Shown here: piece by piece, positions 15,896-57,327 of the stretch
How positions within the stretch are numbered: the first letter of the stretch is position 1
Layout of the letters: each line of letters begins with the position of its first letter
NCBI RefSeq assembly: GCF_014836875.1
Contig: NZ_JACSQC010000001.1
Coordinates: 572,704 to 636,703, forward strand
Length of the DNA stretch: 64,000 nt
Direction: 5' to 3'
DNA from: Arthrobacter pullicola
GTDB taxonomy: Bacteria > Actinomycetota > Actinomycetes > Actinomycetales > Micrococcaceae
Notes under the pieces: model-generated
What the model was told of the DNA's origin: nothing
The model's database searches: none
What the model saw: the letters and a program-made list of their open reading frames with translations, nothing else
Position numbers and translations under genes: made by a program

Positions 15896-16975
15896 CTAAT
15901 TTCCGCCAAGAGCCAGCAGCGGGTCCACCCGGGTCACGCGGCGTACGGCAATCGCTGCACCGGCCAGACCGAGCAGGAAGACACCGGCCACCGGCAGCAC
16001 CGTTGTGGCGGCGGTCGCGGCGAAGGGAGCTACCTGGGCGGCCAGGGCGCCGGCACCGGCACCGAGCAGTCCGCCGGCAATGGTTCCGCCGGCCAGAATG
16101 ACGGCGGCCTGCACCAGGGCGTCGCGCAGGACGTAGGACTTGGTTCCGCCCAGAGCCCGCAGCACGGCAATGTCCCGGGTGCGCTGCAGCGTCCAGACAG
16201 TCAGGAACGCCACGATCACCAGGGCGGAAATGCCGTAGAGGAACGCCTGCATCATCAGCAGGGAACCGTTCTCCGAGGAGTAGGCCGGCAGGGCGGACAA
16301 GCTGGCGGAGCGGGTCAGGCTGGTGGTCCCGGCAGCGGCGTTGGCGGCGTCTAGCCCGGCATCGTCCCGGCTCCCGCCGTCGTAGTTCACGGCCACGACC
16401 GTCCCGGCCACACCGGGCTCGACGTGCGCGAACTGCTTCCAGTCCACAATCGAGGCCCAAAGGACCGGGGTGTGGCTGTACCACTGGTCTTCGATGACTC
16501 CGGCGACGGTCAGGGACTCTCCGTTGACGGTGGCAGCGGTTCCGGGCAACAGGTCCAGGTCATCGGCGAGCTGCTGGCTCACCACGATCTTTCCGGTGGC
16601 CACGCCGTCCGGAGCCAGGCCGCCGTCCGGGACCGCACCGAACAGCGCCGCGGAAGCTGTTCCGCCGGATTGGATCCGGCCCTGGGCGATGCCCAGCGGC
16701 TCGGCACCGCTCACACCGGAAGCCTGCTGCCAAGTCTCCAGCTGTTCCGGACTGACCTGGGATTCGGTGAAGGACGCCTTGGGTTCGGTTCCCGCCGGCG
16801 CACCGAACACCACCTCGTCAGCGTGCAGGTCCTTGATGCTGGACGTGGACTGATCGGCGAGTCCGGCGGTGAGGCCGGAGAGCATAACCAGCAGGAAGCT
16901 GATAAGCGCGACGACCGTTCCCATCAGGGCGAAACGGCCTTTCGCGAAGCGGATCTCCCGCAGGGCCAGATACAT
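15896..16975 (-). CDS. ABC transporter permease, FtsX/MacB-like
   Basis: A 359-residue permease of the FtsX superfamily. One membrane helix near the N-terminus (RFALMGTVVALISFLLVMLSG) is followed by a large extracytoplasmic domain of about 190 residues, then three C-terminal helices, including IVAFLTVWTLQRTRDIAVLRALGG. The R-D-I-A-V-L-R-A-L-G coupling motif is typical. AAGGAAAC precedes the start at 16975; the longer frame adds a polar, atypical N-terminus. It acts with the downstream ATPase and most likely functions as a homodimeric exporter. Confidence 0.9.
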   Translation of the reverse strand: MYLALREIRFAKGRFALMGTVVALISFLLVMLSGLTAGLADQSTSSIKDLHADEVVFGAPAGTEPKASFTESQVSPEQLETWQQASGVSGAEPLGIAQGRIQSGGTASAALFGAVPDGGLAPDGVATGKIVVSQQLADDLDLLPGTAATVNGESLTVAGVIEDQWYSHTPVLWASIVDWKQFAHVEPGVAGTVVAVNYDGGSRDDAGLDAANAAAGTTSLTRSASLSALPAYSSENGSLLMMQAFLYGISALVIVAFLTVWTLQRTRDIAVLRALGGTKSYVLRDALVQAAVILAGGTIAGGLLGAGAGALAAQVAPFAATAATTVLPVAGVFLLGLAGAAIAVRRVTRVDPLLALGGN

Positions 16976-17083
16976 GGGCTGTTTCCTTCGTTGTGCTGTT
17001 GTTTCTTCGTCAGATGCAGACTGGGCTGTTCCCTCCCTTTCCACTCTCCTGTCCGCCGCGTCCTGCGGCATCGGCTGGGCGGG

Positions 17084-17132
17084 CGGTTCCCCGGAACCGT
17101 CCGGTTGAAGAGCCGGTCAACCAAACGGTTGA
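17084..17132. promoter_or_regulatory. cluster of inverted repeats in the ABC/two-component divergent promoter
   Basis: Between the ABC permease (minus) and the sensor kinase (plus) lie CGGTTCC-CC-GGAACCG (17084-17099) and three half-sites, GGTTGA (17103-17108), TCAACC (17117-17122) and GGTTGA (17127-17132). NarL-type regulators bind such spaced half-sites. Binding by the adjacent response regulator is inferred. Confidence 0.5.
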
Positions 17133-17167
17133 TGCGGCGCCTGAGTACGGTGGCTAGGCTGGCGGAT

Positions 17168-18502
17168 ATGTCCGCCGAGTTCGGCCGGTCGCAGGCCGGC
17201 GAGCGCATCCTGCAAGTCCTCCGTCTGGCCCTCCATGTGGGATTTGCACTGCTGCTCGCCGTAGCCGTGGCGCGGCTGTTGCTGATGGCGCCCGTGTCCT
17301 GGACCACCTACGCTGCGCTCTTCCTCTCAGCGGTCCTTGCCGCGGTGTACGTGACCGGCACCGTGGCGGAGAAACGGACCTCGGAGGGCAGCCGGCGGAC
17401 CGGCAGATTCGACCCCGAGCGGCACGGTCTGGCCTGGCTGGCCGTAGTCGCCGGGCTGTGGGGAGCGCTGATGGTGCTCAGTCCGGACTTCTCCTGGCTG
17501 GCCTTTCCGCTGTTTTTCCTGGAGCTGCGGCTGCTGTCCGTCCGGTCCGCGGTCCTCGCCGTCTGCGTGACGACGGCGGCAGTGGTCGCCGCGCAATGGG
17601 CGCATGCCGGCACCTTCCACGCAGCCATGCTGCTGGGCCCGGCGATCGGCGCCGGATTCGCGGTCATCATGGGCATGGCCTACCAGGCCCTCTACGCCGA
17701 AGTCACCAACCAGCGCCGGGCGCTGGATGAACTGCACCGCACCCGCGCGGAGCTGGCCCGCAGCCAGCGGGAGCAGGGTGTCCTGGCTGAACGGGAGCGG
17801 CTGGCCCGGGAAATCCACGACACCCTGGCCCAGGGGCTGGCGAGCATTGTGCTGGTCAGCCGCTCGGCCGGTGATTCCCTCGGGGACGGGGACCTGGCAG
17901 CCGTGCGTGAGCGGCTGCGGACAGTCGAGGCCACAGCTGCGGAGAACCTCACCGAAGCCCGGCGCTTTGTCCGGGACCTGCAGGCCCCCCAGAGTGAGAC
18001 CGGGTCCCTCCCGGACCGCCTGCTGCGGGTCTGCGCAGCGGTACAGGACCAGGCCGCGGCCCAGGGGCAGGCGCTGGAATGCCGGTTCAGGCTGGAGGGA
18101 GATCCGGTTCAGCTGCCGGCCCCGTATGAGGTGGCGATCCTCCGGGCGGTGCAGTCCGCGCTGGCCAACGTGCTCCAGCACGCCGGGGCCTCCACCGCCG
18201 TCGTTACCCTGGGCTTTGTGGGACAGGACGTGACCCTGGATATTTTCGACGACGGCCGCGGCTTCGATCCGTCCGCCGTTCCGGCACGCCAACAGCCGCG
18301 GGCGGATGGATCCGGGTACGGGCTGATTTCCCTCCGGGACCGGGTCACGGCACTCGGGGGGAACATGGACATGGAATCGGCTCCCGGAGAGGGAACGGTG
18401 CTGGGCATCCGGCTCCCGCTGCGCGCGGAAGCCGGCACCGAAGCAGCCGGCGAGGCGCTCCCGGGCGCAGGACCCACAACAAGGGGACGAAATCATGAGT
18501 GA
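17168..18502 (+). CDS. NarL-type sensor histidine kinase (HisKA_3)
   Basis: A 444-residue membrane histidine kinase. Four or more hydrophobic segments fill residues 17-170, with no obvious large external sensor domain. A coiled linker (about 175-205) leads to the HisKA_3 dimer helix REIHDTLAQGL with phospho-acceptor His217. The HATPase shows NVLQHAG (N-box) and DDGRGFD plus GYGLISLRDRV (G-boxes). The start at 17168 is the first ATG that gives the family length. Its stop overlaps the response regulator by 8 bases. An envelope-sensing (DesK/LiaS-like) role fits the divergent ABC exporter. Confidence 0.9.
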   Translation: MSAEFGRSQAGERILQVLRLALHVGFALLLAVAVARLLLMAPVSWTTYAALFLSAVLAAVYVTGTVAEKRTSEGSRRTGRFDPERHGLAWLAVVAGLWGALMVLSPDFSWLAFPLFFLELRLLSVRSAVLAVCVTTAAVVAAQWAHAGTFHAAMLLGPAIGAGFAVIMGMAYQALYAEVTNQRRALDELHRTRAELARSQREQGVLAERERLAREIHDTLAQGLASIVLVSRSAGDSLGDGDLAAVRERLRTVEATAAENLTEARRFVRDLQAPQSETGSLPDRLLRVCAAVQDQAAAQGQALECRFRLEGDPVQLPAPYEVAILRAVQSALANVLQHAGASTAVVTLGFVGQDVTLDIFDDGRGFDPSAVPARQQPRADGSGYGLISLRDRVTALGGNMDMESAPGEGTVLGIRLPLRAEAGTEAAGEALPGAGPTTRGRNHE

Positions 18503-19139
18503 ACTGCGGGTGCTGCTGGTGGATGACCATCCGGTGGTGCGGTCCGGGCTCCGCGCCATGCTCTCGGGTTTTGACGGTGTCTCCGTCGCAGCCGAGGCAG
18601 GCGACGGCGATGAAGCCCTGCGGATGCTGGCGAAGGAGAAAGCGCTCGGCCAGCCGGTGGACCTGGTGCTGATGGACCTACAGATGGGACCGGGCATGGA
18701 CGGGGTCACCGCCACCCGGCGGATCAAGGAAACAGACCCCGGGCTTCCGGTGCTGGTGCTGACCACCTATGACACCGACGCCGATATCCTGGCGGCTGTG
18801 GAGGCCGGCGCCAGCGGATACATGCTCAAGGACGCGCCGCCGGAGCAGATCCGGGACGCCGTCCGATCGGCCGCCGCCGGACAGACCGCACTGGCCCCGG
18901 AGGTCGCGGCCCGTCTGATGGGAAGGCTGCGGAACCCCGAGCCTTCCCTCAGCAGCCGGGAAATAGAGCTCGTGGAGCTGCTGGCCACCGGGATGTCCAA
19001 CCGTGCCATTGCCCGGACCATGTTCATCAGCGAGGCCACGGTCAAGACCCATCTGGTGCACATCTACGAAAAGCTTGGGGTGGATAACCGCACCGCAGCT
19101 ATATCGGTCGCGCGGGAACGGCGGATCATCCGCGGTTAA
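18495..19139 (+). CDS. NarL/FixJ family response regulator
   Basis: A 214-residue response regulator. The receiver domain (about 4-125) has the acidic pocket DDHPVVRSG and phospho-acceptor Asp61 in LVLMDLQMG, plus the conserved K in MLKDAPPEQ. A LuxR-type helix-turn-helix follows (SSREIELVELLATGMSNRAI and FISEATVKTHLVHIYEKL). AAGGGGA lies 8 bases upstream of the ATG. It should activate or derepress the divergent ABC exporter. Confidence 0.93.
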   Translation: MSELRVLLVDDHPVVRSGLRAMLSGFDGVSVAAEAGDGDEALRMLAKEKALGQPVDLVLMDLQMGPGMDGVTATRRIKETDPGLPVLVLTTYDTDADILAAVEAGASGYMLKDAPPEQIRDAVRSAAAGQTALAPEVAARLMGRLRNPEPSLSSREIELVELLATGMSNRAIARTMFISEATVKTHLVHIYEKLGVDNRTAAISVARERRIIRG

Positions 19140-54913: not shown

Positions 54914-56509
54914 TCAGCCCGCCGCCGGCAGGCGAACCGTGAACACCGTTCCCCGGCCCACTTCACTGTTGAGCGTAATGGTTCCCTGATGGCCCTCGAC
55001 GATGTTCTTGGTGATGACCAATCCCAGCCCGACACCTGGAATTGCTGCCTTGCGGCTGGTCCCTGAGCGGAAGAACTTGGTGAAGACCTCGGTCTGTTCG
55101 GCCGCGGTCATGCCGATTCCGGTATCGGCTACCTGGAAGTGCACGCTGTCCCCGGTGGACCACGCGCTGACAGTTACCCGGCCGCCGTCGGGCGAGTATT
55201 TCACCGCGTTGGAAAGCAGGTTATCGATCACCTGGCCAATGCGCTGGGGGTCAACGAAGGCCGGCAGCTGTGCGGGGAAGTCGGAGACCAGCTTGACCCT
55301 GTTGATTTCCGCCCGGGGAGCAGCTGAGGTCATGGCGCTGCGGAGCAGGTCGGCTAGATCCGAGCTTTGCTGCTTAATGCTGCTGGGGCCGGCTGCAGCG
55401 GAGAGCAGGTCAGAAACCAGTTCGAGCAGCTTCTCGGAGTTGCGCAGGGCGATCTTCAACGAGGTCGCCACGTGCGCCGGGATCTCCTCTTCCTCCTCCA
55501 GTGCCAGATCGAGGTAGCCCATGATTGAGGTCAGCGGGGTGCGGAGCTCATGTGAAACGTTGGCCACGAAGTCTTCCTTCGCGGCGACGGCGTTCACCAG
55601 TCCGGTGACATCGCTAAAGGCGATCACAGAGCCCTGGAAACCACCCTGCCGCTGCACGGACCGTGCGGTGACGCTGAAGGCCCGCTGCTGATCGCCGGTT
55701 CCAAACCAGACAAGCTGGTCGGAAAACGACTGCCCCTGCACAGTGCGGCGCACCGGGCGCAGCTCCGGTGGCAGCGGCGTAACGCGGTCTGGGCCGAAGA
55801 TCAGAAGTTCGCATTCGTTGGCCTGCGTGCTTCCGGGCGGCAGGGCGCGCCGCTGGATAAACCGCTGCCGTGAGTTGGTGAGGATGACATTGCCTTCCTC
55901 ATCCACCACGGAAACACCGACCTCCACCGTGTCCAGCACGGTTTGGAGCAGCGACTCCTTGCGCCGGCTTTCCGCCAGGCTTTCCTGCAGGATCCTGTCC
56001 TTTTCCCGCAGCGCGGCCTGCTTCTCGAGCACATCGGCTTCCGCGCTGGCACGTGCTGCTTCGGCCTTCTCGGCAGCCCGCAGGGCTCTGACCAAATCCC
56101 GCTCATACAGCCGGCGGGCATGGGCGTTGAAGACCACCACCCGGTCCAGGGCCGGGCGGGTTCCCTCCGCCGGCTGCCGCGTGGCAGAGATCAGCGCGGG
56201 AAGGCGGGTGCCGTCGGCGTCGAGAAAATCAACCGCCAATTCCGCGAAGGAGCGGCCCACGCTGAGCTGGGGCAGGGCGTGCGTCGAATAGACGATGCGG
56301 TCCCCTACGGGGAGAAGCGCCAACAGGCTGGAACCGATCAGATCTTCGCGGGCACGGCCGATCCAGTTCGCGAATGTCGTATTGACCTCGGCAATAGTTC
56401 CGTCTTCGAGAGTGACGATGTATCCCGACGGCGACCCGTTGAACAGATCCCGGTAGTCCAGTTCAACGGCCGGGCTGGGTGGTTCCGCTTTCCGGGATAC
56501 TGCCGTCAC
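54914..56509 (-). CDS. PAS-PAS sensor histidine kinase coupled to an RsbQ-type hydrolase
   Basis: A 531-residue soluble kinase with no membrane helix. PAS 1 (about 18-130) contains YRDLFNGSPSGYIVTLEDGT and LLPVGDRIVYSTHALP, closely resembling the PAS domain of RsbP-like PP2C phosphatases. A coiled coil (135-190), PAS 2 (190-305), HisKA with VSHELRTPLTSIMGYLD (His320), and HATPase with NLLSNAVKYSPDGG and GLGLVITKNIVEGH follow. The start overlaps the RsbQ-type hydrolase stop by 4 bases. No response regulator is adjacent, so its output partner is unknown. Confidence 0.9.
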   Translation of the reverse strand: MTAVSRKAEPPSPAVELDYRDLFNGSPSGYIVTLEDGTIAEVNTTFANWIGRAREDLIGSSLLALLPVGDRIVYSTHALPQLSVGRSFAELAVDFLDADGTRLPALISATRQPAEGTRPALDRVVVFNAHARRLYERDLVRALRAAEKAEAARASAEADVLEKQAALREKDRILQESLAESRRKESLLQTVLDTVEVGVSVVDEEGNVILTNSRQRFIQRRALPPGSTQANECELLIFGPDRVTPLPPELRPVRRTVQGQSFSDQLVWFGTGDQQRAFSVTARSVQRQGGFQGSVIAFSDVTGLVNAVAAKEDFVANVSHELRTPLTSIMGYLDLALEEEEEIPAHVATSLKIALRNSEKLLELVSDLLSAAAGPSSIKQQSSDLADLLRSAMTSAAPRAEINRVKLVSDFPAQLPAFVDPQRIGQVIDNLLSNAVKYSPDGGRVTVSAWSTGDSVHFQVADTGIGMTAAEQTEVFTKFFRSGTSRKAAIPGVGLGLVITKNIVEGHQGTITLNSEVGRGTVFTVRLPAAG

Positions 56510-57327
56510 GCCGCCGGTACCCGGGCGAGGTAGGAGAGGATTGCCTCCGCTGTTTCTATGGGGGCGCTGACATGCGGCAGATGGCCCGTCGCCTTCAGCT
56601 GCACCAGGGTGCTGCCGGGGATGCGTTCCTGGGTGTAGGTGCCGATGTGTGTGGGGGCGAGCAGGTCATCCGAGCATTGGAGAATCAATGTGGGTACTTT
56701 TACCTCCGGAAGCAGGGCCCGCACGTCCGAGCGGAACGAGACGCGTGCAAAGTCGCGTGCGATCGCCGGATCCAGCTGGCAGAAGCTGCCCGCCAGCTCA
56801 TCTTGCAGCTCCGGCTTTTCCGGATTGCCCATGATCACCGGAGCCATTTCGGTAGCCCACACGATGTAGTTGGTGTCCAGGGAGGTCAGCAGGTCATCGA
56901 TGTCTGCCGGGGTGAAGCCGCCGGTGTAGCCGTCCAGGGGATGGTCCATGTAACTGGGAGATGAGGCCAGCAGAACCATGTTCGAGAAATGCTGCGGTGC
57001 CGAAGCCGCGGCGATGACAGCCATCATTGCGCTGACGCTGTGTCCCACGAACGTTGCGTCCTGAAGGTCCAGTTCGCGGCAGATGTCCAGCAGATCGCTG
57101 ACATAACCATCCAGCGAGGAATACTTGGCCGGCGTGTACGCGGATTTATCCGACTCGCCGGAACCGACGTGGTCAAAGACGACAACCCGGTACTCGTCCG
57201 TGAACTGCGGGACTATGCGGCGCCACATCGCCTGGTCACAGCCGAAACCGTGGCCAAAGATCACCACGGGACCCGTTTCATTGCCTAGTATTCGGACGTT
57301 GTTGCGGGAGAGAACGTCAGTCGTCAT
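56506..57327 (-). CDS. rsbQ: RsbQ/KAI2-type alpha/beta hydrolase
   Basis: A 273-residue hydrolase. It opens NNVRILGNETGPVVIFGHGFG and has DHVGSGESD and the nucleophile elbow FVGHSVSAMMA (Ser97), with Asp220 (LQCSDD) and His249 (ATGHLPH) completing the triad at the positions expected from B. subtilis RsbQ (Ser96, Asp219, His247). RsbQ supplies a hydrophobic signal molecule to the PAS domain of RsbP. Here the coupled downstream gene is a PAS kinase. The start at 57327 gives exact RsbQ-like length. Confidence 0.93.
   Translation of the reverse strand: MTTDVLSRNNVRILGNETGPVVIFGHGFGCDQAMWRRIVPQFTDEYRVVVFDHVGSGESDKSAYTPAKYSSLDGYVSDLLDICRELDLQDATFVGHSVSAMMAVIAAASAPQHFSNMVLLASSPSYMDHPLDGYTGGFTPADIDDLLTSLDTNYIVWATEMAPVIMGNPEKPELQDELAGSFCQLDPAIARDFARVSFRSDVRALLPEVKVPTLILQCSDDLLAPTHIGTYTQERIPGSTLVQLKATGHLPHVSAPIETAEAILSYLARVPAA

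Follow-up and report, generated by a model that had tools for sequence, protein, structure and literature searches.

Bipartite signalling modules, in which a gene for an alpha/beta hydrolase of the RsbQ type lies directly upstream of a gene whose product begins with an RsbP-type PAS domain, were described by Nadezhdin, Brody and Price in 2011 with phosphatase, histidine-kinase and diguanylate-cyclase outputs (PMC3183031). The kinase outputs of that set are confined to Gram-negatives, an extra PAS domain of non-RsbP type occurs in 5 of 45 proteins, and a coiled coil is predicted, over 21 residues or more, in 36 of 45. The target of the module was known in Bacillus subtilis only, and the signal sensed by RsbQ was then unknown. 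Contact between B. subtilis RsbQ and the PAS domain of RsbP was seen by two-hybrid and pull-down experiments, no cofactor had so far been found with RsbP according to the authors, and two models were offered, in one of which the hydrolase hands a product over to the PAS domain and in the other is itself the sensor (PMC3183031). Here we describe a hydrolase-kinase pair from Arthrobacter pullicola (Actinomycetota, Micrococcaceae), at positions 54,914 to 57,327 of a 64,000-nucleotide stretch that we call the window (NCBI RefSeq assembly GCF_014836875.1, contig NZ_JACSQC010000001.1, positions 572,704 to 636,703 of the forward strand). Judged by sequence, the pair is very probably a member of the RsbQ-PAS module.

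The first-pass annotation of the window had presented the coupling of an RsbQ-type hydrolase to a PAS histidine kinase as a rewired sensor. The arrangement is not new, as RsbQ-PAS modules with histidine-kinase output were published in 2011 (PMC3183031). What is new is that the kinase version occurs in an actinobacterium, apparently with an independent origin in the family, together with two departures from the PAS signature and a regulator that is a candidate partner. We found no report of an actinobacterial RsbQ-PAS kinase version in open-licence PubMed Central papers. Such a version offers a direct biochemical readout, autophosphorylation, in contrast to a sigma-factor cascade.

The pair and the domains of the kinase are laid out as follows:

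56506..57327, minus strand: RsbQ-type alpha/beta hydrolase, 273 aa (1wom as best PDB match, Abhydrolase_1, Ser97-Asp220-His249)
54914..56509, minus strand: PAS-helix-PAS-HisKA-HATPase sensor kinase, 531 aa, GTG start (open reading frame and Pfam)
56123..56458, minus strand: PAS1, RsbP-type, kinase residues about 18-129 (RsbP-PAS profile, Bacillus query, AlphaFold2 fold)
55928..56125, minus strand: linker helix after PAS1, kinase residues 129-194 (AlphaFold2)
55580..55927, minus strand: PAS2, weak PAS_4-like, kinase residues about 195-310 (Pfam, below cut-off)
54920..55582, minus strand: HisKA (H-box HELRTPL) and HATPase_c catalytic core, kinase residues 310-530 (Pfam)

The hydrolase and its RsbP-type partner

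The hydrolase starts with ATG, and its stop codon overlaps the GTG start of the kinase by 4 bp, as first annotated. Its best match among PDB sequences is RsbQ (1wom, 272 bits), with Olei00960 as runner-up (231.4 bits) and then KAI2- and D14-type receptors, whose chains score 160.7-193.6 bits among the matches listed. The catalytic residues are found exactly where the first reading had placed them, at Ser97, Asp220 and His249. In Pfam the protein is Abhydrolase_1, and other Pfam and NCBIfam matches carry general names or fall below cut-off. The plant KAI2 and D14 receptors are homologous hydrolases with a Ser-Asp-His triad, and their output is F-box/SMXL.

The first PAS domain of the kinase (PAS1) was scored against a profile of 42 sequences, namely the N-terminal PAS domains of genes downstream of RsbQ in 80 named loci, with actinobacteria excluded and near copies removed. 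These loci are the best 80 of at least 587 confirmed ones, ranked by likeness to Bacillus RsbQ, and form an uneven sample. Against this RsbP-PAS profile PAS1 scores 75.7 bits, within the range of 51 other RsbQ-paired actinobacterial PAS domains (62.0-114.4 bits), whereas 30 generic PAS domains from the same phylum reach at most 27.8 bits, one of them having no score at all. The generic set was drawn from the best PF00989 matches, and is hence canonical, and was picked irrespective of RsbQ neighbours. Two further PAS domains from the A. pullicola genome score 12.0 and 6.3 bits, and two PAS2 domains 2.2 and 0.1 bits. A generic-PAS profile was trained on the same 30 sequences that were scored and is fair only outside that set, where it gives PAS1 30.4 bits. 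When residues 1-109 of a Bacillus RsbP were searched against the whole A. pullicola genome, PAS1 was the sole match (E 1.3e-9). On this sequence evidence PAS1 is a true RsbP-type PAS domain, and the resemblance to RsbP proposed at first pass holds against the comparison with generic PAS domains.

An AlphaFold2 model of residues 1-195, built with 36 relatives, has a PAS fold (mean pLDDT 94.7) with a long helix at 68-85, in the place expected for F-alpha. The best 50 of 628 Foldseek matches (E <= 0.001) consist for the most part of various PAS and LOV domains, with none bearing the name RsbP; the likeness of the fold extends, among others, to the PAS domains of heme and LOV sensors. When PAS1 served as a profile query against the PDB, all matches were weak (best E 0.0067).

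Ten positions were taken as class residues from the 2011 paper, the nine tested in it (C10, L13, L48, Q53, F55, C56, Y59, E72 and P86) plus P62. Seven of them (L48, Q53, C56, Y59, P62, E72 and P86) correspond to L66, R71, Y74, H77, P80, E90 and P104 in PAS1, each the commonest or second commonest residue at its position in 70 named relatives, and the L13 position is Ile, as in 7 of those 70. As in the 2011 module, the end of PAS1 lacks a DIT motif and has FNA there (sequence VVVFNAHARRLYERDL). The linker helix begins with a nearly invariant R-x-x-Y-E motif (R in 143 of 144 rows, E in 142 of 144), which was not used as evidence because generic PAS linkers also have R-x-x-x-E.

Several features of PAS1 weigh against the reading of the pair as a working RsbQ-PAS module. 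Its identity to a Bacillus RsbP PAS domain is just 23%. The C10 position is Ser28, a residue found in none of the 70 named relatives, and is Ser or Ala in 37 of 39 PAS1 domains of the genus. The F55 position is Val73, and Val is not among the six commonest residues there in the 70 relatives. This last departure matters because the F55A substitution in B. subtilis abolishes signalling and inhibits RsbQ binding (PMC3183031). Every one of the 39 aligned PAS1 domains of the genus has Val or Leu here, so the contact surface has drifted as a whole.

Over the kinase as a whole, Pfam places PAS matches at 18-111 (PF00989 18-72, PAS_9 27-111), HisKA at 310-370 and HATPase_c at 420-529. No PPM phosphatase domain is found in it by Pfam, and HisKA and HATPase_c stand in that place. 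The second PAS domain (PAS2) falls just short of the Pfam PAS_4 cut-off (22.4 against 23.1 bits), and the equivalent stretch in a paralogue, L237, scores 30.4 bits; PAS2 is probably a weak yet real PAS. Its score of 0.1 bits with the RsbP-PAS profile places it in a PAS class other than that of PAS1. The HisKA and HATPase output of the first-pass annotation is confirmed, and its second PAS domain is probable. What is supported after PAS1 is a helix; the coiled coil that was annotated there is no more than possible. AlphaFold2 predicts a single unbroken helix at 129-194 (block mean pLDDT 93-98 in the model of residues 1-195), and a heptad-repeat test over that helix was not significant (shuffle p 0.29 and 0.14). 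When the kinase was modelled as a single sequence the mean pLDDT was 38.5, with the linker helix as the sole long confident stretch.

In sum of its parts the pair resembles the 2011 module in gene order, in the most N-terminal position of the RsbP-type PAS, in the helical linker, in the extra non-RsbP PAS and in the histidine-kinase output. It differs in its host, which belongs to Actinomycetota rather than the Gram-negatives, in the changed C10 and F55 positions, and in a kinase core that is apparently of separate, local origin.

Conservation of the pairing and origin of the kinase core

RsbQ is present in 28 of 29 genomes of the genus, at 44 places (E <= 1e-40). Of these, 40 were fetched, and in 39 the next gene encodes an RsbP-PAS histidine kinase; at the exception, L089, no partner was found. 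The neighbourhood is thus kept in relatives; its absence from them would, by the first reading, have refuted the idea. There are two types of pair, RsbQ1 (23 of 40) and a paralogous RsbQ2 (16 of 40) at other genomic places. In each of the 23 RsbQ1 regions the pair is flanked upstream by a DHFR-like gene and downstream by a GtrA-like one. The A. pullicola genome has a single RsbQ and no RsbQ2 pair at E <= 1e-40, and the RsbQ2 pairs (L090-L099 and L116-L121) are from other species of the genus. As a side observation, 11 of the 23 RsbQ1 regions (L074, L076, L077, L079-L083, L085, L087 and L088) have, on the upstream side of the DHFR-like gene and in divergent orientation to the RsbQ1 operon, a gene for what reads by eye as a thiamine-pyrophosphate-type enzyme; this gene was not found in the eight regions nearest to that of the window (L066-L073).

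Beyond the genus the outputs vary. Partners were called at 35 bits or more for the RsbP-PAS and 25 bits or more for outputs, with output profiles made from 7 sequences each. In the family, at least 31 of 245 genomes searched carry RsbQ (E <= 1e-50), at least 14 of these outside the genus; of the 16 family loci outside the genus, six have GGDEF-EAL, four GGDEF and one a kinase, and at five no partner was found. In the phylum RsbQ occurs in at least 23 of 396 genomes, including that of the window (E <= 1e-55), and the 25 other loci have PPM (20), kinase (2), GGDEF (1) or no partner found (2). Kinase outputs are therefore present in several actinobacterial lineages and are a minority outside the genus, and one receptor module bears phosphatase, cyclase or kinase outputs within one phylum. 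In the 80 named loci, the RsbP-PAS is joined to PPM in 22, to GGDEF in 33 (2 with EAL) and to HATPase in 15; one more has an RsbP-PAS with no output found, and in 9 no RsbP-PAS was found. When the three surveys are pooled, a gene with an RsbP-type PAS adjoins RsbQ at 144 of 161 loci and not at 17 (named 71 of 80, family 50 of 56, phylum 23 of 25), where the named set includes the training rows of the RsbP-PAS profile itself.

Family RsbQ genes for which no PAS partner was found include L100, L103, L106 and L111. At L100 a short stretch after the hydrolase resembles the start of an RsbP-type PAS (QAPCGCLITD...), which suggests decay of the partner.

From the perspective of its origin, the kinase core points to a local source. 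The closest kinase in the same genome is L237, with 50% identity over 353 aa that span PAS2, HisKA and HATPase; the runner-up, L235, has 40% over 233 aa in the HisKA/HATPase part only. A maximum-likelihood tree of 51 kinase cores unites the RsbQ1 and RsbQ2 kinases, L115 and the family's membrane kinases in a single group (36 rows, support 94/99), apart from nine RsbQ kinases of Bacteroidota, Pseudomonadota, Cyanobacteriota and Chloroflexota and from five other kinases of the A. pullicola genome. The tree took in 9 of 15 named RsbQ kinases, 17 of 39 from the genus (that of the window included) and 18 of 30 membrane kinases. In a tree of the hydrolases, the window RsbQ lies in a family clade (24 rows, 100/99) together with five GGDEF-linked RsbQs (L104, L105, L110, L112 and L114).

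These trees suggest that the kinase core was apparently recruited from a local membrane-kinase family. The simplest history would be that, within this family and independently of other phyla, one RsbQ-PAS module exchanged its output when it was fused to a local kinase core. Other features of the kinase tree speak against too firm a view of this history: its key support lies just below the starred threshold of the tool (95 and 80), there are long branches among the outgroups, and of two further actinobacterial RsbQ kinases L312 sits on the longest branch and L310 was left out. The idea from the first pass that a kinase replaced the RsbP phosphatase is not what the trees favour, as they point to a local membrane-kinase core and related RsbQs in other genera of the family carry GGDEF. 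The pair shares the module with the RsbQ-PAS-GGDEF and GGDEF-EAL genes of other genera of the family (L101, L102, L104, L105, L107-L110, L112 and L114) and differs from them in its kinase output. With the membrane PAS-HisKA kinases it shares the PAS2-HisKA-HATPase part and the clade, whereas these have a hydrophobic N-terminus (by eye), an adjacent regulator and no RsbQ, and the window kinase has an RsbP-PAS instead.

Candidate response regulator

No response regulator lies beside the pair, either at the window locus, as first annotated, or in any of 56 RsbQ regions of 4.0-6.4 kb each, searched with the 18 regulators of the A. pullicola genome as queries. These 18 receiver-domain regulators were retained from 22 first-look candidates at E <= 0.001, and the genome also has 22 HATPase_c matches, two of which read by eye as GyrB/ParE. 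All but one of the regulators adjoin a kinase. The exception is the ANTAR regulator L051, which is PdtaR-like, and L240 looks by eye like a PdtaS-type kinase for it. An unpaired regulator elsewhere in the genome was considered as a partner; with the Pfam threshold used and L051 matched with L240, none is left for the window kinase.

The survey yields a testable regulator, the best candidate partner, which is encoded at the following place in the same genome:

C8:252516-253301: L053, OmpR-type response regulator

L053 is divergent to the gene for L237, whose N-terminus is of membrane type (by eye). A regulator like L053 adjoins 25 of 30 membrane kinases related to L237, and relatives of L053 occur in all 29 genomes of the genus, including the one without RsbQ. 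Around the H-box the window kinase has 24 of 32 residues in common with L237, 20 of 32 with L235 and 17 of 32 with L236. From these similarities we suspect, tentatively, that the window kinase may act on L053 in trans. Two observations count against it. L053 is not adjacent to the RsbQ-kinase pair. In addition, the residues at H+7, +11 and +12, which we take to be kinase specificity positions, are T/G/Y in the window kinase and L237 and also in L235 and L236, and therefore do not single out L053.

The foremost alternative is that the module is the same and the kinase signals to another regulator that already has a partner, for instance L055, which is paired with kinase L236, or to more than one. 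The T/G/Y residues shared with L236 and L235 and the lack of a regulator next to the pair would fit this. However, L237 is the closest kinase of the genome over a stretch that includes PAS2, and the closest around the H-box, so that we hold signalling through another regulator to be possible but rather doubtful. The phosphorelay of the first-pass annotation is unsupported, and a plain two-component step is simpler.

Two further observations concern these genes. A conserved Hpt-like protein of 124 aa is encoded beside L053 on C8 (L314:4559-4933, plus strand); it scores 18.4 bits with Pfam Hpt, below the cut-off of 24.6, and carries the motif VLS[IL]K[IT]SSxMxGA or close to it. With tblastn, copies turned up at 16 of the 30 membrane-kinase loci (1.5 kb flanks) and in all 4 larger regions, of which three overlap with loci of the first count. 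The canonical motif of a working Hpt has a phospho-histidine, and none of the copies found has His at that place. Separately, L235 (C14:67871-68221) is a second sensor kinase without an adjacent regulator, and its H-box segment is near that of the window kinase.

Proposed signalling and alternatives

Taken together, we regard it as probable that the pair is an RsbQ-PAS bipartite module with a histidine-kinase output and a core from the local family, most likely acting on L053. In this scenario, which for its first steps draws mainly on the analogy with B. subtilis, RsbQ would bind, and probably hydrolyse, a small and possibly lactone- or butenolide-like molecule, and its state would reach PAS1 by direct contact. 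That RsbQ acts through PAS1 is, by the same analogy, quite likely. A model of RsbP with RsbQ was described in 2025 (eLife, PMC12143880). Given that PAS1 continues straight into a helix of 66 residues, RsbQ would be expected to set the kinase via PAS1 and this helix, through which the change may reach PAS2 and the kinase dimer and govern kinase activity. Two sensors, one membrane-bound and of the L237 type and the other gated by RsbQ, would then feed the single regulator L053.

A 2024 paper, by its title, reportedly deals with butenolide perception by B. subtilis RsbQ, and a lactone ligand is plausible here; the karrikin-like sensor of the first-pass annotation is plausible to that extent and no further. 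Its energy-stress sensing is unsupported, and energy-status sensing by the module is, according to the 2011 authors, without experimental backing even in B. subtilis (PMC3183031). If the ligand were a butenolide, actinobacteria of this family would read plant-type signals via a two-component system. The most far-reaching version of these ideas is one in which an RsbQ-PAS module was transplanted onto a local membrane-kinase core, a KAI2/D14-like hydrolase, possibly reading butenolides made by plants or microbes, and a membrane kinase converge on the same OmpR regulator, which also travels with a conserved histidine-less Hpt-like protein, and the contact was rebuilt around Val or Leu in place of Phe55. 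We consider this combination unlikely to hold in full.

A different possibility is that RsbQ is merely an enzyme that makes or clears a ligand of PAS1, with PAS1 as the real sensor and no lasting contact between the two. Model 1 of the 2011 paper is close to this, yet there the hydrolase delivers its product by contact (PMC3183031). The Val or Leu at the F55 contact position throughout the aligned PAS1 domains of the genus would agree with a purely enzymatic role, as would a PAS fold like those of heme and LOV sensors, among others. On the other hand, the genes are tightly paired, the E72, P62 and P86 positions are kept, contact was observed in B. subtilis by two-hybrid and pull-down, and the 2011 authors knew of no cofactor with RsbP (PMC3183031). 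We suspect that a purely enzymatic RsbQ is rather unlikely, and that direct action on PAS1 is the better account.

That an ordinary metabolic alpha/beta hydrolase lies beside an unrelated PAS kinase by chance would be compatible with how common such hydrolases are and with the general or sub-cut-off Pfam and NCBIfam names, but is made very improbable by the RsbQ-specific similarity, the RsbP-type PAS1, its standing as the only match of the Bacillus RsbP-PAS in the genome, and the pairing at 39 of 40 loci in the genus and 144 of 161 overall. Equally improbable is that the pair feeds sigma-B-type partner switching as in Bacillus, for which homology to RsbQ-RsbP is the sole argument. The partner kinase has no PPM domain, the only match to the SpoIIE profile in the genome reads by eye as a PstP-like PP2C, and no sigma factor reaches the SigB/F/G cut-off (TIGR02980 best 128.3, cut-off 234.35 bits; RsbW and RsbV were not searched for); the phosphatase and sigma-factor results led us to set a SigB pathway aside. 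The pair thus shares with B. subtilis RsbQ-RsbP the hydrolase similarity (272 bits), the match of PAS1 to the class profile (75.7 bits) and the gene order, and differs in the missing PPM domain, in the missing SigB-class sigma factor above cut-off and in a PAS1 of only 23% identity.

Elsewhere in the window, at 16424-19139 on the plus strand, a two-component pair of ordinary appearance is encoded; its kinase precedes a regulator of 214 aa whose end is of LuxR type (types assigned by eye).

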